64,000 bases of DNA from Desulfuromonadaceae bacterium (GTDB lineage: Bacteria > Desulfobacterota > Desulfuromonadia > Geobacterales > Pseudopelobacteraceae). The stretch spans positions 186,001-250,000 of the forward strand of contig JAQUIT010000003.1 in NCBI GenBank assembly GCA_028681335.1, written 5' to 3'. A model generated the notes under the pieces. That model had not been told where the DNA came from, did no database searches, and worked only from the letters and a program-made list of their open reading frames with translations. Shown here piece by piece: positions 27,103 through 50,103 of this stretch. Both the position numbers and the translations under genes were made by a program. Numbering within the stretch: position 1 is the first letter of the stretch; every line of letters begins with the position of its first letter.

Positions 27103-28770
27103 ATGAGCCTTGTAGGTAACCTCGAAGAGCTCGGACTTGGCGAGATTTTACAGATCGTCAGTCTCAGCAGAAAAACCGGTGTCCTTTCCCTTGCTAGCGG
27201 GGGACGGGATGGCTCGGTTTTTTTTCGTCATGGCCAGGTTGTAAGAGCTACATCAAGCACCTATCAGCAGAGCCTTGGCGAGGTGCTGATCCAAAAAGGG
27301 GTTATTGATCTTACCATCCTCCGCAAGGCTCTTGCATTGCAGCAGGAGAAGCGGTTTCTTGAACGTCTCGGCTCAATACTCGTAAAAAACTTTGGCGTTT
27401 CACAGGAAATTATTGAGGAAATTGTCAGGGAACAGATTGAAAATGTTATATTTTCACTGTTTGCCTGGTCTGAAGGAACATTCAAGTTTGAAACCAAGAG
27501 TCCGGCTGAATCTGCTGACGGTTCTAAAATGGATCCGCTGCAATTTATGCTGGATCAGGGGCTGAATCCGCAGTTCCTTGCCATAGAAGGCACCCGGATG
27601 CTCGATGAGAAACGTCATGCGGCTGAGACGGACTTTTGCGGTGATCATTCCTCTGACGATTCCCAGAACTTTGCCTTTGATCTGACGGATGGTTGTTGTT
27701 CAGCGGCATCACCGCGGCATGTGGTGCAGCAACCGATTGTTATTGTTGATGATGACGGTCCGACACTGCGTGCCATTGCTGACGGGCTTATTGATAATGG
27801 TTTTGTGGTTCACGCCATGACACGCAGTGAGGATACACTGATCAAGGTTGATTCCCTGCACCGAGGCGGCGATGCTCCTACGGTACTGATGGATCTTATC
27901 ATGCCGAGAATGGACGGTTCAGGTGTACTGGGTGGCATTGAACTGCTCGAGCTGCTGCATAACAACTTTAAAGATCTGCAGTTGATTATCATGACCGATT
28001 ATCACCATGCAGAAGCTGAAAAAAAGATTCGTGATCTTGGTTATACCTTCATCATCAAGCCACGCCGTGTCGAAATCAATACTCCAGCCATTATGAGCGG
28101 TTTTCTTACCCAGATTACTCAAGCTATCCGGAATTCATCATCCTCACCTGCCACGGAGTGGCAGAATCGTTTTAATCTCGGTGATGAGCTGCGCATTGAA
28201 ATGGGTGAGGATGATGACATGCCGCAGGCTGTTGAATCCCAGGGGGTAAGCGGAGGCTTTTCATTGTTGCGTGGCATGCTGGAAGAGCTGAACAACCCTG
28301 ATCTTCAGGGCGGTGTCCTTTTACTGGTGCTGCGCTTTGCTTCAGAATTTGTCAACAGGGCAATAATTTTTACCATCAGTGACCAGATAATTTCCGGTTT
28401 CGGGCAATTCGGCATCACCGGCGGCACAATCAGCGGCAATGAAAGAGTCCGTTCGTTACATTTTCCCCAGGAATCCGGTTCAATCTTCGAAGAAGCTCTC
28501 CGCACCGGCCAGCCACATACCTTGTCACCAGCCACTACACCGCTCAATTCACGTCTCTTTGACCAATTAGGTGGCGGTACTCCTGCGGAAGTCTTTATCG
28601 GCCCGTTGATCAGCAAGTCTCGCGTCATCGGTTTTCTCTACGGAGACAACCTTCCGGACAAGAAACCGATCGGTGATGTCGAACCGCTGGCTATTTTCCT
28701 TGCGCAGGCCGGTGTCTCAATAGAGAAGTCATTACTAGAACGTCAGCTTAATGAGAGGGTTGCCCTGTGA
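27103..28770 (+). CDS. DUF4388/PATAN-domain protein with central receiver and GAF-like C-terminus
   Basis: 'MSLVGNLEELGLGEILQIVSLSRKTGVLSL'; 'IVIVDDDGPTLRAIADGLIDNGFVV...VLMDLIMPRMDG'. Confidence 0.8.
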   Translation: MSLVGNLEELGLGEILQIVSLSRKTGVLSLASGGRDGSVFFRHGQVVRATSSTYQQSLGEVLIQKGVIDLTILRKALALQQEKRFLERLGSILVKNFGVSQEIIEEIVREQIENVIFSLFAWSEGTFKFETKSPAESADGSKMDPLQFMLDQGLNPQFLAIEGTRMLDEKRHAAETDFCGDHSSDDSQNFAFDLTDGCCSAASPRHVVQQPIVIVDDDGPTLRAIADGLIDNGFVVHAMTRSEDTLIKVDSLHRGGDAPTVLMDLIMPRMDGSGVLGGIELLELLHNNFKDLQLIIMTDYHHAEAEKKIRDLGYTFIIKPRRVEINTPAIMSGFLTQITQAIRNSSSSPATEWQNRFNLGDELRIEMGEDDDMPQAVESQGVSGGFSLLRGMLEELNNPDLQGGVLLLVLRFASEFVNRAIIFTISDQIISGFGQFGITGGTISGNERVRSLHFPQESGSIFEEALRTGQPHTLSPATTPLNSRLFDQLGGGTPAEVFIGPLISKSRVIGFLYGDNLPDKKPIGDVEPLAIFLAQAGVSIEKSLLERQLNERVAL

Positions 28771-29141
28771 GTAACAAGACTATTATGATTGCCGATGATT
28801 CGGCAACCATGCGTGCCATGTTGGTTGCCATTGTTGAATCATTGGGTGACTATCAGACAGTAGAGGCCTGCAGCGGTTTTGATGCGCTGCGACTTCTGCC
28901 GCGAGGGCATGTTGACCTTATTCTGACTGATATAAATATGCCTGATATCAACGGACTTGAGCTGATCAGCTATCTGCGTAATAACCAAAACTACAAAGAT
29001 ATTCCGGTGTTTATCATTTCTACCGAAGGGAGCTCAAAGGATGTTGAAAAGGGTAAACAGCTTGGCGCTGATGAATATGTGATTAAGCCCTTTTCTCCGG
29101 AAACCCTTAAGCAATTGATACATTGCTATTTAAATAAATAG
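28767..29141 (+). CDS. cheY: CheY-like response regulator
   Basis: 'TIMIADDSATMRAMLVAIVESLGDY...LILTDINMPDINGLELISYLR...VIKPFSPETLKQLI'. Confidence 0.88.
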   Translation: MSNKTIMIADDSATMRAMLVAIVESLGDYQTVEACSGFDALRLLPRGHVDLILTDINMPDINGLELISYLRNNQNYKDIPVFIISTEGSSKDVEKGKQLGADEYVIKPFSPETLKQLIHCYLNK

Positions 29142-29240
29142 TTCTGGCCGCTGTTACCGGTTGGTTCAGGCGCTGTTACGGTATTTAAAACGTAAGCGAG
29201 CGTGCTTACCCTGAAAGTCGGGGTTGAGGTGCATTTAATA

Positions 29241-31349
29241 ATGAGTGAACAGAACTCCACACATACGAAGGCTATTCAGGATTTTCTTGCCGAAGCGGAG
29301 GAGATTGTCGAACAGCTCGGATCAGAGCTGGCTGATCTTTCCGATATGGGGGAGAGTGGAGAGCTTAATCCTGATGTTCTGAACTCTATTTTTCGTGGAG
29401 CTCATTCACTTAAAGGGTTGGCCGGGATGTTCAATTTTAGCGATGTGGCTGAACTTGCACATAACATGGAAAATCTGCTCGACTGGCTACGGCTCGGAAA
29501 ACTTGTTTTTACTCAGCAGCTTATGGCTGTCCTGTTTGATGCTCATGAACTGCTCAGCTCTCTTGTACGTGCCCTCGCCTCAGGCGAAGAGCGGAGTATG
29601 GCGCCGGAAATTGCGGCGTGTGTTTCCAAAATAAATGCCTGTCTGGCACCTCAGAAAACGCAGAACACGCTGTCTCCGCTTGAGGCTCTTGGGCTGCCTC
29701 CACATGTCTGTGGCGCTTTGACAGAATATGAAGAACATCGCCTGAAAGACAATCTGGCCAAAGGGCGGTCTATCTTCAATATTCATACATCCTTTGAGCT
29801 GTCCACATTTGATACTGAACTGTCTGCGGTAACGGATATTCTGAAAGGGTGTGGAGAAGTTATCAGCACCTTGCCGAGTGTCGGCGTCAACCTCGAAACC
29901 AATATTGATTTTGAAATTCTTTTCGGTTCGAAAAATTCCCTCGATGAATTAAAAACGTTGGTTGAACGGGGCAGCGTCACCGTTACGCAGCTTGGCACCG
30001 GTTTAACGCAGGAAATGAGTCCGACCGTTGCAGAGCCCTGTGTTGTTGAAACGGCAAATGCCGGAGAGCATGATGGCCTGCAGGTTATTGCCCCGACCGC
30101 CGGCATGATACAGGCCGCAGCAACTCCCGTACTGTCCGATGATGCGGCTTTGACAGCGAAAAGTATGAGCAGGACGGTCAGGGTTGACATCGGTAAGCTT
30201 GATGAGTTGATGAATATCGTCGGTGAACTGATTCTGGCCAACTCAACCATTGCCGACGTAACCACCAGAATGCGCAATGAAGGCTTTTCGCGTATGGCAA
30301 TCGAATTGGGCAAGGCTGCAAAGGGCCTTGAACGCAAACTCTCTGATCTACAGAAAGGGGTCATGGAAATTCGCATGATTCCGATCGGCCAGCTGTACGA
30401 GAAGATGTCGCGCATTGTCCGTAAAATTTCCCGTGATCAGGGAAAACGTGTTGAACTCAAATTTTTTGGGGCTGATACGGAGCTGGATAAGCTGATCGTA
30501 GAAGATATTTCCGACCCGATGATGCATATCATTCGCAATGCTATCGATCATGGTATTGAATCCAGTGATGTGCGTGTGGCTCAGGGAAAGAACGAAAAGG
30601 GCACGATCAAAATTTCATCGTTTCAAAAAGGTAACCACGTTGTTATCGAAATTGAAGACGATGGTGGCGGCATTGATGTTGAAAAGGTAAAGAACAAGGC
30701 GTTGCAAAAGGGATTGGTGAGCGATATCAGCACCGTTTCCGATCGTGACGCAATCGACTTTATTTTTCTGCCCGGTTTTTCGACAAATGAGACGGTGAGT
30801 GAAGTTTCCGGCCGTGGCGTCGGCATGGACGTTGTCCGCAACAACATCTCGGCTATTTCCGGAATGGTGGATATTGAAACCAGGAAGGGTGAGGGGAGCC
30901 GTTTCATAATAACGCTGCCGATCACGCTGGCTATTATCAAGGCGTTGATTATAAACTGCAGCGGCAGAACCTATGCACTGCCGATTACCTCTGTTCTTGA
31001 ATCGTTGTTGATGACTGACAAGGATATCATGACGGTCGAGCGTAAGGAGGTCGTGCAGCTTCGGGAGTCGACCTTGCCGCTGTTGAGGCTTGAACATTTC
31101 TTTGATCTGCAGCGCAGTGACGAAGCGCCGAAGGAATTTTATGTTGTCGTTGTCGGAGTTGCTGAGAAGCGTCTCGGCATAGCGGTTGACAATCTGCTCT
31201 GCCAGCAGGATATCGTAATTAAGTCTCTCGGAGAGTCATTCAAACGCTTTCGCGGCATTTCCGGTGCTGCGGACCTTGGAGATCAGCGCACAATTCTTGT
31301 GCTGGACATCGGTGGAATAATCAATGAAACGATGCGTTCCGGGGGCTGA
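29241..31349 (+). CDS. cheA: Chemotaxis histidine kinase CheA
   Basis: Hpt 'IFRGAHSLKGLAGMF', H-box region 'GELILANSTIADV', 'HIIRNAIDHGIES', 'SGRGVGMDVV', CheW-like C-terminus. Confidence 0.94.
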   Translation: MSEQNSTHTKAIQDFLAEAEEIVEQLGSELADLSDMGESGELNPDVLNSIFRGAHSLKGLAGMFNFSDVAELAHNMENLLDWLRLGKLVFTQQLMAVLFDAHELLSSLVRALASGEERSMAPEIAACVSKINACLAPQKTQNTLSPLEALGLPPHVCGALTEYEEHRLKDNLAKGRSIFNIHTSFELSTFDTELSAVTDILKGCGEVISTLPSVGVNLETNIDFEILFGSKNSLDELKTLVERGSVTVTQLGTGLTQEMSPTVAEPCVVETANAGEHDGLQVIAPTAGMIQAAATPVLSDDAALTAKSMSRTVRVDIGKLDELMNIVGELILANSTIADVTTRMRNEGFSRMAIELGKAAKGLERKLSDLQKGVMEIRMIPIGQLYEKMSRIVRKISRDQGKRVELKFFGADTELDKLIVEDISDPMMHIIRNAIDHGIESSDVRVAQGKNEKGTIKISSFQKGNHVVIEIEDDGGGIDVEKVKNKALQKGLVSDISTVSDRDAIDFIFLPGFSTNETVSEVSGRGVGMDVVRNNISAISGMVDIETRKGEGSRFIITLPITLAIIKALIINCSGRTYALPITSVLESLLMTDKDIMTVERKEVVQLRESTLPLLRLEHFFDLQRSDEAPKEFYVVVVGVAEKRLGIAVDNLLCQQDIVIKSLGESFKRFRGISGAADLGDQRTILVLDIGGIINETMRSGG

Positions 31350-31354
31350 ACTAT

Positions 31355-32155
31355 ATGTACAAAAGCTATTTCGGCTTTAGGGAAAAACCGTTCAGCAAAA
31401 CCCCGGATCCCCGGTTCCTGTTTCTGAGCCATGCCCACGAAGAGGCTCTTGCCCGGCTTGAGTTTGTTGTTGAAGAGCGCGAACTGGCGGTTTTGACCGG
31501 TGACATCGGTTGCGGGAAAACCACCCTGTCACGTGCTTTGATGGATCGTCTCGGACCCGGCTACCGCTTCTGCTATATTATCAATCCGCGTCTGAATGCT
31601 ATAGAGTTCCTGCGTACCATAGCCAGGATTCTCGAGGTAGAGCAGCCGGCAGATGCCAAGGACACCCTGATAAATCAGATCCATACCGCCGTTTATTCAT
31701 TGAATCAACGCGATATCTGCCCGGTGCTGGTGATTGACGAAGCCCAGATGATTACCGATGCCGAGGTTTTTGATGAAATCAGGCTGCTGACTAATTTTCA
31801 GCTGGACGACCGGAACCTGCTTGGTGTTGTTATCATGGGGCAGCCTGAACTGCGTCAGATGATTGCGTCCAGCCGTTTTGAGCCGCTGCGGCAACGAATT
31901 TCGCTTCATTATCATCTGAAGCCGCTTTCGTTGGACGAGATAATGGAATACCTTGATTTCCGGCTCGAGGCCGCTGGTGGTTCTCCCGGATTATTCTCAC
32001 CTGACGCGGTGCAGCGTATCTATGAGCTGAGCGGCGGAGTACCGCGTAAAATAAATTCCATGGCAACCAATGCACTGCTGGTCGCATACGGTTGCGACGC
32101 TGCCTTGATTGATTCGGGCATAATCAACGAAATCAAAGATGAATTGATGATGTAG
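31355..32155 (+). CDS. ExeA-like AAA ATPase
   Basis: 'MYKSYFGFREKPFSKTPDPRFLFLSHAHEEALARL', Walker A 'GDIGCGKTTLSRAL', Walker B 'VLVIDEAQ'. Confidence 0.88.
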   Translation: MYKSYFGFREKPFSKTPDPRFLFLSHAHEEALARLEFVVEERELAVLTGDIGCGKTTLSRALMDRLGPGYRFCYIINPRLNAIEFLRTIARILEVEQPADAKDTLINQIHTAVYSLNQRDICPVLVIDEAQMITDAEVFDEIRLLTNFQLDDRNLLGVVIMGQPELRQMIASSRFEPLRQRISLHYHLKPLSLDEIMEYLDFRLEAAGGSPGLFSPDAVQRIYELSGGVPRKINSMATNALLVAYGCDAALIDSGIINEIKDELMM

Positions 32156-32166
32156 GCGGTACAGCT

Positions 32167-32937
32167 ATGGATCTCGCAAAAATAAGAAAAAAATCACTCC
32201 TGACTCCTAAAGAGCCTGACACCGAGCGCGTGGAAGCTCCTGCGGCTTCACCTCTGCCTGTAGAGGTTGCGCCTCAGGTCGCGCCGATTGTGCCGTTCTC
32301 TGCCGAGTCGGACTGTTTTCAGACAGAGCCATGCTGCACAGTCGCTACTTTTACGGCCGCTGCTTCACCGTTTATAGCACCACAGCACCCTGACTATGCT
32401 GCTCCTGCATTAACTCCGCTGGAAGCTATTTTGGCCGGTAGAACTGCGGCTGGGTGCAATGATGAGTCAATTCTTGCTGATGAAGAAACCGGTGGGATTA
32501 CCTTCGAAGCGTGTTTTGAGTTCCTCTGTTTCCGGGTCTCTGACGAGATCTATGGCATAAACATCATGGACATAAAGGAGCTTATAAAGCCACGTGAGGT
32601 TACGGAAGTACCGCGTGCTCCCGCCTTTGTTTCAGGAGTTCTGTCGTTGCGAGGCACGATAATCCCGATTATAGATATGCGTGTCCGGCTTGGACTGGCT
32701 CATGAAGAGCCTACCGGGAAAGAGCGGATTGTTGTCATACGAACCAGCAACTCACTTAGCGGCTTGCTGGTCGATGAAGTAATTCAGGTTGTGAAGGTGC
32801 AGCAGGACGCTATCGAAGCAGCTCCTGCCGTTCTTGACGGGATTGACCGTGACTTTATCAGTGGTCTTGGTCGTGCTGACGGAAAGTTGATAATAATTCT
32901 GAATTTGGAAACCATTGCTGACATCAACCTCTGCTAA
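32167..32937 (+). CDS. cheW: CheW-domain protein with long low-complexity N-terminal extension
   Basis: ~115-aa Pro/Ala-rich leader, then 'FLCFRVSDEIYGINIMDIKELIKPREVTEVPRAPAFVSGVLSLRGTIIPIIDMRVRLGL'. Confidence 0.85.
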   Translation: MDLAKIRKKSLLTPKEPDTERVEAPAASPLPVEVAPQVAPIVPFSAESDCFQTEPCCTVATFTAAASPFIAPQHPDYAAPALTPLEAILAGRTAAGCNDESILADEETGGITFEACFEFLCFRVSDEIYGINIMDIKELIKPREVTEVPRAPAFVSGVLSLRGTIIPIIDMRVRLGLAHEEPTGKERIVVIRTSNSLSGLLVDEVIQVVKVQQDAIEAAPAVLDGIDRDFISGLGRADGKLIIILNLETIADINLC

Positions 32938-32952
32938 GGACCGGTAACTAGT

Positions 32953-33417
32953 ATGGAAGGTTCACTAACTCATATCCAGCTAGCCTGTTTCAGTCTCGGA
33001 GACAGGTTGTTTGCCGTCGATATCATGAGGATCAAGGAAATTCTTGTCCCCCAGAAGCTGTCACCGCTACCGTGCGACTCTGACGTGCTTGAGGGTGTTG
33101 TTAACCTTCGTGGCGCTGTTATCCCGGTAATGAATATGCGCAAGCGGTTCGGACTGGCGGTCCCTGACGGAGGCTCTGTCGGTAAGCTGCTGATAGTTGC
33201 TCTGGCCTCACAATTACTTGCCTTGGCTGTGGATGACGTCATGGAGGTTATTTCTCTGCCGGTTGCCGATATTAAACCGCCTATCCAGATGGAGTCGGGG
33301 GTGGGAGCGGAATTTCTGTTGGGTGTCTGTCTGTCGGGTGACCGCGTCTTTATGATTCTGGATATAGATTCACTTCTTGGCAGCAGTCGCACTATTCAAA
33401 CCTCAGTACCGGTATAG
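32953..33417 (+). CDS. cheW: CheW-domain protein
   Basis: 'LACFSLGDRLFAVDIMRIKEILVPQKLSPLPCDSDVLEGVVNLRGAVIPVMNMRKRFGL'. Confidence 0.88.
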   Translation: MEGSLTHIQLACFSLGDRLFAVDIMRIKEILVPQKLSPLPCDSDVLEGVVNLRGAVIPVMNMRKRFGLAVPDGGSVGKLLIVALASQLLALAVDDVMEVISLPVADIKPPIQMESGVGAEFLLGVCLSGDRVFMILDIDSLLGSSRTIQTSVPV

Positions 33418-33455
33418 CTGTTATCCGCAGGTACTGTATATAAAAACAGGAGTAG

Positions 33456-35288
33456 TTGGTGATTGACCTTCAAAACATACGCTGTGCCCTTCAATCAGCT
33501 GATGAAGAAACACGTAGATCAGCCCTGCATCTGTTGAAGGATGTTCCATTGGTCGATGCACAGGCCATTTTGTTTACCGCAATGGGTGATGAAAGCTGGC
33601 GGGTGCGAAAAGAGGCTGTGGAATCCTATGTTAACTCCAGGCCAGACCTCGATTCTGTTGAACAGTTATTAAACCTGCTGCGCAATGAGGAAAATGCCGG
33701 TTTAAGGAATTCAGCTGCAGAAGCCGTTGTCCGTCTTGGTTCCGCACCATCTTCGCTCCTGATAAAGCTCGTGGATGATCGGGATGCTGATGTACGTAAA
33801 TTTGTAATCGATGCTATGGGTGCTATTGGCGATCAGGTTTTTGTTCCCGCGCTGCTGCATGCTCTGGACGATCCAGAGGTAAATGTTGCCTCAGCGGCTG
33901 CAGAACAGCTGGGCGTAGTGGGAGATACCGGTGCTGCAGAGCCGTTGATGCAGGCGATTCTGCGCCGCGATGATGTTTTGTTTCGTTTTAGTGCTCTGGG
34001 TGCTCTGGGTGCTTTGGCAGCACCGTTACCGGTGCCGGAAAAGCTGGTGAAGCTCGCAGATCAGGACATACTCAGAAGGGCCGTATTCGAATGTCTTGGA
34101 GCTATTTCCGATGACAGTTCTTTCAAACTGCTGTTTGATGGTCTGTCCTGCCGTCAGAAGAACAACCGTGCCGCTGCGGTAAAAGCTTTACATACTATCT
34201 ACTGCCGCTCGTCTGTCGCGGTACAGCAAATGATGCGTGAAACATTCGAGTCGCTTAAGGCTAGTGATGATGTCCCGGGCCTTTTGGAGTTGATCGACAA
34301 GCGGGATTGTGTCCTGACTGAAGCACTTTTGTGGATGAGTGTCATGATCAGGGATGTACGTTTCATTCCGCTGCTTATTGAAGCTTATGGTGACGAACGG
34401 ACTGCTGCTGCGGCAGTTACAGCCATTAAATCATTTGGTTACGAAGCGTTACGTGAAGTCGTTTCTCAATATGCGAATCTGGATGAAAGCGGCCGCAGCG
34501 GTCTCTGCCTCCTCATTGCCGAGTGTGGCTATTGCGGTTTTAACGACGTTATTCAGGAAGCGTTGCATGATCAATCGGCACAGGTCAGAAAGGCCGCTGC
34601 CACGTCCGTAGCCAAGCTTGGCCTGGACAGGTGCATAACCGAAATTATTACCTTGATTGATGATGACGAAAAACAGGTATACAGGGCTGCCATTGCCGCT
34701 CTGCAGTCGCTTGTCATAAGCAGTCGTACGGCTGTTGAGGCAGAGGTAGGCCTCCTCTGTTCGTCAAAGTTGCCGCATCACCGAAAAGCAGCTGCTTTTT
34801 TGCTGGCATCACTGGGTGAACGGGAACGTTTGCAGCAATTATTGAGAGATGAAGACGCGCAGGTTCGTAAAGCAGTCGTTGAGGCGATTGGAACAAGCCG
34901 TATGGAATCATTTGCTCCGTTGCTTTGCGCGGCACTGGGTGACGGCGATCCTGACGTGCGTATCGCTGTTGCCGACGCGCTCGGGAAACTGCATGATACG
35001 ATGGCGCTTGATGTCCTTGAGCGTGCGCTGGATGATGACGATGTCTGGGTTCAATCTGCTGTTTTGAAGGCTATCGCTGCAATTGCTCCGGCAGCGGCAC
35101 TGGCACTTATCAAAAACATGTATACCGTAGCCGGAGGCCTGTTGATGATTACAAGTTTGCGGATTCTCGAGAATCTCGGTGGCCCTGAAGCTGAAAAAAT
35201 TATCCGCTTTGCCCTTCAAAACAGTGATAAGGACATTGCCAGGCAGGCTGACAAGTCTCTCGAGCGAGTGATCGCCAATTCAAACTAG
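33456..35288 (+). CDS. HEAT-repeat protein (about 600 aa)
   Basis: Repeated 'D.D..VR..A..ALG.' units, e.g. 'LGDGDPDVRIAVADALGKLHDTMALDVLERALDDDDVWVQSAVLKAIA'. Start TTG 33456 or GTG 33459. Confidence 0.82.
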   Translation: MVIDLQNIRCALQSADEETRRSALHLLKDVPLVDAQAILFTAMGDESWRVRKEAVESYVNSRPDLDSVEQLLNLLRNEENAGLRNSAAEAVVRLGSAPSSLLIKLVDDRDADVRKFVIDAMGAIGDQVFVPALLHALDDPEVNVASAAAEQLGVVGDTGAAEPLMQAILRRDDVLFRFSALGALGALAAPLPVPEKLVKLADQDILRRAVFECLGAISDDSSFKLLFDGLSCRQKNNRAAAVKALHTIYCRSSVAVQQMMRETFESLKASDDVPGLLELIDKRDCVLTEALLWMSVMIRDVRFIPLLIEAYGDERTAAAAVTAIKSFGYEALREVVSQYANLDESGRSGLCLLIAECGYCGFNDVIQEALHDQSAQVRKAAATSVAKLGLDRCITEIITLIDDDEKQVYRAAIAALQSLVISSRTAVEAEVGLLCSSKLPHHRKAAAFLLASLGERERLQQLLRDEDAQVRKAVVEAIGTSRMESFAPLLCAALGDGDPDVRIAVADALGKLHDTMALDVLERALDDDDVWVQSAVLKAIAAIAPAAALALIKNMYTVAGGLLMITSLRILENLGGPEAEKIIRFALQNSDKDIARQADKSLERVIANSN

Positions 35289-35295
35289 GTAGTTC

Positions 35296-36174
35296 ATGAC
35301 ACTCTCTTGTGCCCACAATCATCTTATGTCTGACGATGAATTCCATCTGTTGCGGGATTGTATCTACGCGCATTGCGGGATTTATTTTGATCAGGAATCA
35401 AAATACATCCTTGAAAAGCGCCTTTCCAGCCGTTTGACAGATCTGAATCTTTCCAGTTTTTACGACTATTATCATTTCATAAAGTATAACCGTAACAAAG
35501 AGCATGAACTGACTGATATAATGGATGTTCTTACCACGAATGAAACGTACTTCTTTCGTGAATCGATCCAGTTGAAAGCGTTTTCCGATGAGGTTATCCC
35601 GGAGCTTATCAAAAGAAAAATTGCGCGGGGTAACCGGACCTTACGGATATGGAGCGCCGGCTGTTCGACCGGCGAGGAGCCGTACACCATCGCGATGCTG
35701 CTGAGTACCATGCCTGAACTCATTGGCTGGAAGATTGAAATCATTGGTACCGACATTAGCAACAAAGTCCTTTCGCAGGCGCGGCGGGGTGTCTATGGCA
35801 AATCGTCATTCCGGGCTACCAATGAAAACGATCTGCGCCGTTTCTTTGTTGCGCAAGACGACGGCTACAAAGTCAATGACTCCATCAGGGCCCTCGTAAC
35901 CATCAGCCATCTCAATCTTTTTGATTCTCATCGCCTTGCCCTGCTCGGCAAGGTGGATCTTGTCTTTTGTCGCAATGTCATCATCTATTTTGACCAGGCG
36001 GCCAAAAAACGTGTCATTGAGTCATTTCACTCCGCACTGTATGATGGCGGTTTCCTTCTGCTGGGTCACTCTGAATCGCTCATGAATATCTCGACGCAGT
36101 TCACCCTTCGTCACTTCAAAAACGATATGATATACCAAAAGCCTGATCGTCTATCAGTCGGAGGTGGGCTGTGA
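35296..36174 (+). CDS. cheR: Chemotaxis methyltransferase CheR
   Basis: 'LRIWSAGCSTGEEPYTIAMLL', 'EIIGTDISNKVLSQAR', 'DLVFCRNVIIYFDQAAKKRVIESF'. Confidence 0.94.
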   Translation: MTLSCAHNHLMSDDEFHLLRDCIYAHCGIYFDQESKYILEKRLSSRLTDLNLSSFYDYYHFIKYNRNKEHELTDIMDVLTTNETYFFRESIQLKAFSDEVIPELIKRKIARGNRTLRIWSAGCSTGEEPYTIAMLLSTMPELIGWKIEIIGTDISNKVLSQARRGVYGKSSFRATNENDLRRFFVAQDDGYKVNDSIRALVTISHLNLFDSHRLALLGKVDLVFCRNVIIYFDQAAKKRVIESFHSALYDGGFLLLGHSESLMNISTQFTLRHFKNDMIYQKPDRLSVGGGL

Positions 36175-37244
36175 AAAAGATCAGGATAGTTGTTGTTGAT
36201 GATTCTGCCTTCAGCCGTCGCAGCATAACCAAGATGCTGGAAGGGCTGGATTCTGTAGAAGTCGTTGGCTACGCGATAAATGGTGAAGACGGTATACAAA
36301 AAGTTATCGCCCTTAAGCCGGATCTGGTGACTCTTGACCTTGAAATGCCGAAGATGGACGGGTTTACGCTGCTGCGCATCCTGACAACCCGTTTTTCGCT
36401 GCCGGTTATTGTTATCAGCGCCCTGAGCGGAGCGGACAAGGTTTTTAAAGCACTTGAACTCGGCGCACTTGATTTTGTTGCCAAGCCATCGAGCAGTGCA
36501 TCCATTGATCTCCTCTCCATAAAAGAGGATCTTCAGAAAAAAGTACTGCAGGTTCTTTCCCTTAATAACACTGCCAGTCGCCCGGCCCCGGCCATAGGGG
36601 CCGGAAGCCAGGAACGCAGTGAAACCAGCAAAGCACCGTCTGGAAGAGCAGGGGTGGGGATAAACCACGCCATTGATCTTGTGGCAATTGGTTCCTCTAC
36701 CGGTGGGCCGCCGGCCCTGCAGCAGATATTCTCTGCTTTTAAGCAGAAATACCCTTTTGCAATAGTCGTCTCGCAGCATATGCCGCCTGGTTTTACCAAA
36801 GCTTTTGCGGACAGGCTTGATCGCTCATGTCTTTTCGACGTAAAAGAGGCCGAAGATGGTGATCTTGTCCTCCCGGGCAGTATTCTGATCGCCCCCGGTG
36901 GTAAAAATATGACCTTCGAAGTCTGTGGAGGGCAGGTAACAGCACGCATCGTTGAACCTTCAGCCTCTGATCGTTATGTTCCCTCTGTTGATGTCATGCT
37001 CCAATCGTGTGCCGGTATTTACCGCAAGCGGGTGACAGCAATAATTCTTACGGGCATGGGCAACGACGGTAGCGCGGGAGTACGGATAATCAAGGAGCAG
37101 GGTGGTTGCGTGATCGCGGAATCGGAAGAGACCGCCATCGTGTACGGTATGCCGCGGGAAGCGGTAGCCACCGGTGTTGTCGACAGTTGTGTCCCGTTGG
37201 ATAAAGTCGCCGCGGAAATACTGATCCAGGGAGGATTTTCCTGA
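36171..37244 (+). CDS. cheB: Chemotaxis glutamate methylesterase CheB
   Basis: Receiver '[13 protein letters not shown]...[10 protein letters not shown]', catalytic '[16 protein letters not shown]', '[17 protein letters not shown]', '[12 protein letters not shown]'. Confidence 0.95.
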
Positions 37245-47859: not shown

Positions 47860-48150
47860 GGTAAACTTCCCTTCAAGGGTTATGTATACACTAAAAGCGG
47901 ATTATTGTCCTGCGAGGCGGTTTTGTCAAGAGGAGAGGGCAGTGGCAATCGGTTGTCTGATAATATTTGTAGGTGGATGAAGTGCAACTTAAATGAACTT
48001 TTCTGGTGAGCAGCGCCGATCCTGGGCACTTTGTCTTCTTATGATGTTGCAGTCACTGCCTGAATGCGTATCAACACAAGTTTGCAGTCGAAATGGTCAC
48101 TGCATGCCGTCAGGCAGCTGCAAGTGAATGCACTTTGACCTGGTTGTAAA

Positions 48151-50103
48151 TCAGGCAGCACATTCCGTTACGCTGCGACAGAAGATTTCAAGATTATCAA
48201 GTTGAACCTGGCGTTTGTCCGGGTCTGTCTCAAGTGGAAGCCGGTCGATGAGAAAACCGATCCTTTCAAAATAGCTGATTCCTTCACGCATCATCCGCCG
48301 GCACGACTCCTCCCCATCAGTAACGCGTTCGGGGACGCAGACAAGCGCCTCTCCGCTGGAATTCATCAGCCAGGCTGCGTACACCAAAGACTGCCCCCCT
48401 TCAGTCACCAGGCATACGAAACCGTTGCATTTCTGAGCCTGCTTTCCGGTTGGAGCCGCATGGATTGTGTTGTAGGAACGATAAATCTCGACTACATCGG
48501 TTGAAAAGGAGTAAGGGATGCCTTTCAACTGTCTATCCGGTAAGAAATTAATGTGTTCCGTCGTTTCACATGATCCAAACGGGTCGGAGGTGAAGCTTGT
48601 TTGCTGATCCTGGAGAGGTGGTCTGTTCTGGTCTTCCGCAGGAAGAGAGGGTGCTTTGTTGTCTGTCTGTACCAGCGCCATCCCGGTTGGTGATGCGATG
48701 ACCGCACGCGCCTCGGCCAGTTGGCGAATCTCTTCCTTCAAAGCATGTAGCTTTTTTATAGCAGCCTTACGCTGCGACTGGTTAACCTGCTGTTGCCGTT
48801 CGATTTCACCATGAGCTTTGATTTTAATATCTGCGGTAGTTTTCTCTAAAAGGTGCTTCTCAGCGCTTAGGGTATCGACCTTTTTCTTCAACGATTTTAG
48901 CTCGGCCGAGGCATTACGCTCAAGGGCATCCATCTCTTGCAATGCAGAATCATTTTTTGCCTTCTCGACAGAGAGAGACATGCTTGCTTCAGTCAAGGCA
49001 GCGCGCAAGACTCCTGTCTCACGAGTGTATTCGAGATGTTTGCCGGTCAGTTCGGCCATGAGCCTGTTTATTTCCGCCTGCATACCAGTCGTTGCCGCTC
49101 GCTGGAGATCTGTCGCTTCATCACTATTTGCCATCCTGTCGTGCAGGGCTGATTCGTACTTTTTTTGGGTTTCCTGAGATTTGCGGCGAACCTCTTCAAT
49201 TTCTGTTCTGGCTTTTTCGAATTCTATCTGTACGGATTTAAGTTTTTCGTTTACTAATTCGCCCTCGCGTTGAGAAACTTTCAGCTCCTTTCTGGCCTGC
49301 CTTGCTTCATCTTTGGTATTCTTCAGGATGTTTTTGCTGCTGCCGAGTTCCTCCCGCATTTTCAGCAGCTCCTCTTCTGCACCGACAAGCCGCAGCCGTA
49401 GCTCTTTTTCCGCCTCACCAAGGATACGTATCTCCTTGCGCAATTCGTCAGTTTCAGCCGGAAGGGCGGAAAGTGACGAATTATCGTTTTTGGCAGGCAG
49501 CTCAACAGTGGAAGAGTGTTGTGCTGCTGTTGCCGCAAGCAGACGTTTCTTGAGGTTATCCAGCTCTGCTTTATGCTCCATATGTTCTTGAGATCTCTTT
49601 CGGGAAAGCTCTTTTTGTTCTGCGATCAGACCTTCTAAGGCTATTTTGGCGGCATCAAGTTGCAAAGCGAGAGAAGGCTCCCGCATGACCCTGATATCTT
49701 TTATGATCACTTCACGGGTTGCTGTACTGAAATTGATATTGACCTCTTCCATTTCAAAACCGATGTTTTTAAGAAATTCATGGGCTTTCAGCAAAAACAG
49801 ATCCAGTTTTTTGCTGTCGGGCCTGAAAGGATCGGCAATGAAGATGAGGTTGGATTTCAGCTGCTGGTCATGCAATGCCACGTACACGCGGTGGAGGTTA
49901 TATTCATGGACAACACAGATGAATGCGTCGCAGAGGTGCCCCTGGCAATAATCTGCGGAAGGGACGATGGGATGGGTTGAGCGACGGAGTGAAAGGAGGT
50001 TTGGTTCTTCAATCTTCAGATAACTTCTGGTGCGATCAACGGAAAAGATCATCGGAAATGCCTCCCGGCCAATCCGTAGAAAAACCGGACAGGCAGAGAC
50101 CAT
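48151..50103 (-). CDS. 650-aa protein: globular domain, long coiled coil, similar C-terminal globular domain
   Basis: Ends share the pattern C.(F)(I/V)C.V...VY.A...GF (see findings); residues ~140-480 are heptad-rich coiled coil. True start may be the internal Met 'MIFSVDRTRSYLKIEE'. Confidence 0.75.
   Translation of the reverse strand: MVSACPVFLRIGREAFPMIFSVDRTRSYLKIEEPNLLSLRRSTHPIVPSADYCQGHLCDAFICVVHEYNLHRVYVALHDQQLKSNLIFIADPFRPDSKKLDLFLLKAHEFLKNIGFEMEEVNINFSTATREVIIKDIRVMREPSLALQLDAAKIALEGLIAEQKELSRKRSQEHMEHKAELDNLKKRLLAATAAQHSSTVELPAKNDNSSLSALPAETDELRKEIRILGEAEKELRLRLVGAEEELLKMREELGSSKNILKNTKDEARQARKELKVSQREGELVNEKLKSVQIEFEKARTEIEEVRRKSQETQKKYESALHDRMANSDEATDLQRAATTGMQAEINRLMAELTGKHLEYTRETGVLRAALTEASMSLSVEKAKNDSALQEMDALERNASAELKSLKKKVDTLSAEKHLLEKTTADIKIKAHGEIERQQQVNQSQRKAAIKKLHALKEEIRQLAEARAVIASPTGMALVQTDNKAPSLPAEDQNRPPLQDQQTSFTSDPFGSCETTEHINFLPDRQLKGIPYSFSTDVVEIYRSYNTIHAAPTGKQAQKCNGFVCLVTEGGQSLVYAAWLMNSSGEALVCVPERVTDGEESCRRMMREGISYFERIGFLIDRLPLETDPDKRQVQLDNLEIFCRSVTECAA

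Follow-up and report, generated by a model that had tools for sequence, protein, structure and literature searches.

The window, i.e. the whole 64,000-nucleotide stretch of DNA that was analysed, contains a long minus-strand reading frame whose translation ends in two similar-looking regions. This raises the question of what kind of protein carries like domains at both ends of a coiled coil, and how it came about. A sequence-only reading had placed the frame exactly, and the two peptides that it quoted are indeed the N- and C-terminal ends of the translation (Table 1). Translation probably yields a protein of 633 aa, since the orthologues begin at residue 18 of the frame and since a GGGAGG motif lies 8 nt upstream of the ATG of this codon. 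The gene is present as a single copy in the window's genome and is under purifying selection, with an overall dN/dS of 0.27 in comparison to its nearest, 70%-identical relative. GSU1581, considered as a candidate tag, is not established as the orthologue. A literature search found no paper on the two-headed gene or on the head family.

Table 1. Coordinates of the two-headed gene and its parts in the window; residues are numbered along the 650-aa frame.
Feature	Position	Strand	Remarks
Full open reading frame	48151-50103	minus	650 aa
CDS, two-headed coiled-coil protein	48151-50052	minus	probable start M18; orthologue starts and GGGAGG
Shine-Dalgarno-like GGGAGG, before codon 18	50061-50066	minus	read in sequence
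N-terminal head, residues 18-145	49669-50052	minus	AlphaFold2 and profiles
Variable rod part, residues 146-375, with Pro/Ser/Asn-rich break near 198-216	48979-49668	minus	dN/dS 0.38
Constrained coiled-coil segment beside the C head, residues 376-475	48679-48978	minus	dN/dS 0.13
Fast-evolving disordered linker, residues 476-515	48559-48678	minus	35% identity to nearest relative
C-terminal head, residues 516-645, paralogue of the N head	48169-48558	minus	AlphaFold2 and profiles

Elsewhere in the window we noted a chemotaxis-like cluster at 27103-37244 with CheA, two CheW, CheR and CheB, which includes a HEAT-repeat protein (33456-35288) and an ExeA-like ATPase (31355-32155), all assigned by eye from the translations. 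A nadB-like gene probably has its own promoter, because a strong sigma-70-like site (11/12) precedes it at 47901-47929 on the minus strand.

The two heads share ancestry. Smith-Waterman alignment of the first against the last 150 residues gave a score of 62, which was reached by none of 5000 shuffles (mean 26.6, sd 4.3). When profiles built from about 18 orthologues were compared with hhalign, the N and C heads matched with 99.8% probability and an E-value of 1.9e-28 over 128 columns at 16% identity, nearly without gaps across most of the domain. The relationship was also seen between species: the window's N head directly retrieved C heads of other species (i-E down to 2e-8), and its C head retrieved their N heads (down to 3e-7). 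Both ends match the head-family profile across the whole domain. Separate AlphaFold2 models of the N head (pLDDT 86, pTM 0.81) and the C head (pLDDT 89, pTM 0.82) predict the same order of elements, β-β-β-β-α-β-α, i.e. four strands followed by a long helix, then a short strand and a second helix; the models were compared by this order, without superposition. The duplication suspected from the letters alone was thus borne out, and the ends are not predicted as the unrelated folds that had been set against it.

The head is predicted to be an alpha+beta domain of about 125 residues and contains near-invariant Ser and Gly-Phe positions. We rejected metal binding by its CxxxxC pair: the first of the two cysteines is frequently substituted, and one or both are missing from many one-headed relatives. 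In agreement with the earlier failure to recognise the domain, searches of Pfam and NCBIfam with the whole protein, as well as profile searches of PHROGs and the PDB with the heads, returned coil or chance matches only. No Pfam family matched the members of three head alignments, and Foldseek searches of the PDB and viral sets found no match to the heads at E ≤ 0.001.

The approximately 330 residues between the heads are mostly coiled coil plus a flexible linker. Residues 216-475 carry the heptad repeat of a coiled-coil tether, with a best hydrophobic period of 3.54 and a power at 3.5 that was reached by one of 1000 shuffles; residues 150-197, tested alone, gave no significant heptad signal. 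The originally estimated extent of about 340 aa of coiled coil therefore holds, but not as one unbroken coil, which is interrupted at the Pro/Ser/Asn-rich break and at the linker (dN/dS 0.44, disorder judged from composition). The most hydrophobic 19-residue stretch reaches a Kyte-Doolittle mean of 1.2, which is too low for a membrane span. The heads are well conserved and most of the rod poorly, with a minimum at residues 318-340 or so, near the rod middle; conservation rises again in the segment beside the C head. This segment is the slowest-evolving part of the protein, slower even than the heads (dN/dS 0.17 for N, 0.19 for C). Such strong constraint suggests that the coil at this place may make a specific contact or hold a fixed register.

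The same layout is found in about 20 two-headed Geobacterales orthologues of 587-880 aa and also in other families of the class; order, class and phylum are named here after the relatives. Over all genomes two-headed frames vary between 442 and about 1170 aa in length, with conserved heads and a rod of varying length. One orthologue (L051) showed no 3.5 period in the same periodicity test. A class-wide survey with a mixed profile (A3) detected the head domain in 156 of the 277 genomes sampled, and in 62 of the 82 genera, in the form of one-headed proteins (about 160-360 aa), two-headed rods and one four-headed protein. The two-headed gene is dispensable, as most genomes of the window's own genus lack it and only 3 of about 37 carry it. 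One of these three (G002, L036:12635-13603) encodes just the C head and a short coil, and no N head was found in the flanking reading frames of this draft assembly. Neighbours of the two-headed gene are not conserved between genera, such that the gene context yields no function. In another genome (G599, L191:5466-7843) the N head and the C head are encoded by two overlapping frames, which looks like a two-headed gene broken by a frameshift; a second two-headed gene, with a short rod, is present on this contig (L192, 442 aa).

One-headed relatives, which were also found in other Desulfobacterota in a phylum-wide sample, share the head domain with the window's protein (hmmsearch E down to 1e-21). 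They differ in having a single head, no rod, a disordered tail and a fixed operon, which the two-headed form lacks. The gene order of this operon is rlmN, methylthioadenosine phosphorylase, pfkB, head gene, TPR lipoprotein, rodZ and response regulator. The lipoprotein gene directly follows the head gene at all 24 one-headed loci (23 by automatic test and L081 on inspection), in most cases no more than 60 bp away, while pfkB lies upstream at 15 and rodZ downstream at 13 of them; L189, L191 and L193 are pieces of two-headed genes and stand outside this count. The lipoprotein is nearest to PilW (E 1.8e-30) and Tgl (6e-30), both below curated cut-offs. In most one-headed proteins the disordered tail is followed by a terminal motif resembling LGRxLAS[FLM], seen in 17 of those checked (L090, L093, L174 and L180 among them), which is possibly a docking or membrane peptide. 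Two-headed proteins do not have it.

How the two-headed form originated can be read from the ancestral locus. In ten Geobacterales genomes, including that of the window (G000:C36), the locus is collinear with no head gene between pfkB and the lipoprotein gene; in this order it is usually intact apart from the head gene, the two-headed rod having its gene at another place in the genome. Families f6, f109, f110, f113 and f124 hold the operon copy and a two-headed gene in one genome. In a further Geobacterales genome (G609, L186:6713-8980) the ancestral site is occupied by a four-headed protein of 755 aa, whose heads are joined by disordered linkers and which still ends in LGRIMASF. A tree of a first set of heads placed the N heads on one side (100/97) and the C heads on one side (98/91), and after adding families the two types stayed apart (93/90 and 98/95). 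The tree is unrooted and rests on few columns, so that the exact order is uncertain; it does not resolve the four G609 heads. The separation in the wider tree places the N/C duplication before the split of several families of the class. The heads are copies of the class-wide one-headed protein that also occurs in other Desulfobacterota, and there is good support for the two-headed rod having arisen by duplication of such a small one-domain protein.

The anatomy and origin of the protein are well supported. For its role, our leading but still tentative interpretation is that of a cytoplasmic, dumbbell-shaped scaffold or tether, which retains the design of two like heads on a rod proposed at the outset. 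It is favoured by the homology of the heads and the common element order of their models, by the layout kept among the orthologues, by the conservation of the heads against the drift of the rod with the corresponding contrast in dN/dS, by the heptad period of the main rod, by the separation of N and C heads in the trees and by the absence of a membrane span. Against it stand the interrupted coil, the orthologue without a 3.5 period, the unconserved neighbours and the dispensability of the gene. In such a tether the coil would form a parallel dimer with two N heads at one end and two C heads at the other; in the window's protein the two ends would lie some 40-50 nm from each other. The heads would bind protein partners and the variable rod would set their spacing; linking two like sites would then be the gain over the one-headed ancestor. 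Head copy numbers of 1, 2 or 4 per protein suggest a modular binding domain that may be used at different valency.

The main rival to the tether is a hairpin, in which an antiparallel coil would fold back and bring the N and C heads into one pseudo-symmetric head as in SMC/Rad50. The two heads are nearly always kept together, each with its own conserved signature, and conservation along the rod is lowest near its middle. We nevertheless consider it unlikely, given that one genome keeps the C head and a short coil without an N head, that the four-headed protein has no long rod, and that Walker motifs and any ATPase family match are absent.

The operon of the one-headed ancestor hints at an auxiliary function in the type IV pilus or in the RodZ/MreB envelope machinery, the PilW/Tgl-like lipoprotein gene following directly in every case and rodZ often coming next. 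However, pilW-rodZ is a common housekeeping neighbourhood, and the lipoprotein faces the envelope, whereas no export signal is evident in the head protein. A requirement for the type IV pilus found no support in co-occurrence with PilQ: across 58 relatives the distribution of the two-headed gene does not follow that of PilQ, which many genomes encode in the absence of the gene, and two genomes with the gene (G028, G043) gave no PilQ match above cut-off, absences that are soft in draft assemblies. An accessory role of this kind therefore appears quite improbable.

We regard it as very improbable that the protein bridges DNA, with heads that would be distant WGR-like nucleic-acid-binding domains. 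Foldseek did detect a weak structural likeness to the WGR domains (PF05406) of PARP1/2 (TM up to 0.39) and to a phage WGR protein (prob 0.99, E 0.12, TM 0.41/0.49). The heads, however, lack the W-G-R motif, the scanned heads have no Pfam WGR match, comparison with the WGR profile was at chance, and the heads are neutral to acidic, with a mean net charge of 0.2 (N) and -4.6 (C). That the likeness of the two heads is due to chance or composition, for which the low identity of their profiles could be invoked, is already refuted by the shuffles, the profile E-value of 2e-28, the cross-species detection and the nearly ungapped match.

The head domain is missing from Pfam, NCBIfam and solved structures, yet more than half of the genomes sampled from the class carry it, those of Geobacter-type bacteria included. 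Its stages are seen side by side: one-headed in a fixed operon, both forms together, the rod only with the ancestral gene gone from a collinear operon, and four-headed at the old site. It illustrates clearly how a small domain has grown into a long scaffold with two heads. A wider proposal is possible but rather doubtful: this would be an undescribed domain family of the class of Geobacter and relatives, with valency 1, 2 or 4, whose two-headed member connects two like sites inside Geobacter-type cells as a spacer that varies in length, a scaffold system with no counterpart in model bacteria.

Among known systems, the DcrB/DUF1795 proteins (PF08786) with their PsbP/Mog1-like fold recurred as weak Foldseek matches of the heads (DcrB, SciW, EagT6 and PSI-NDH chains, TM 0.24-0.34), and DcrB was the top match in one head search (prob 0.72, E 0.097, TM 0.26). 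The heads differ in having no match to this Pfam family, and hhalign gave at most 0.2%. SMC, Rad50 and MukB resemble the window's protein in carrying globular ends on a long coiled coil; they differ by their ATPase head, Walker A/B and signature motifs and hinge, all of which the window's protein lacks, and SMC-type profile matches covered the coil only and lay far below curated cut-offs. As profile support does not go beyond chance or coil, we claim membership in none of the WGR, DcrB and SMC families. Golgin-like tethers and AglZ/FrzS-type scaffolds, none of which is known to have two copies of this head domain, likewise hold globular ends on a spacer rod, a likeness rather than homology. 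The heads are a new, undescribed domain family, and the protein that they build is of a known general kind, that of globular heads on a coiled coil.
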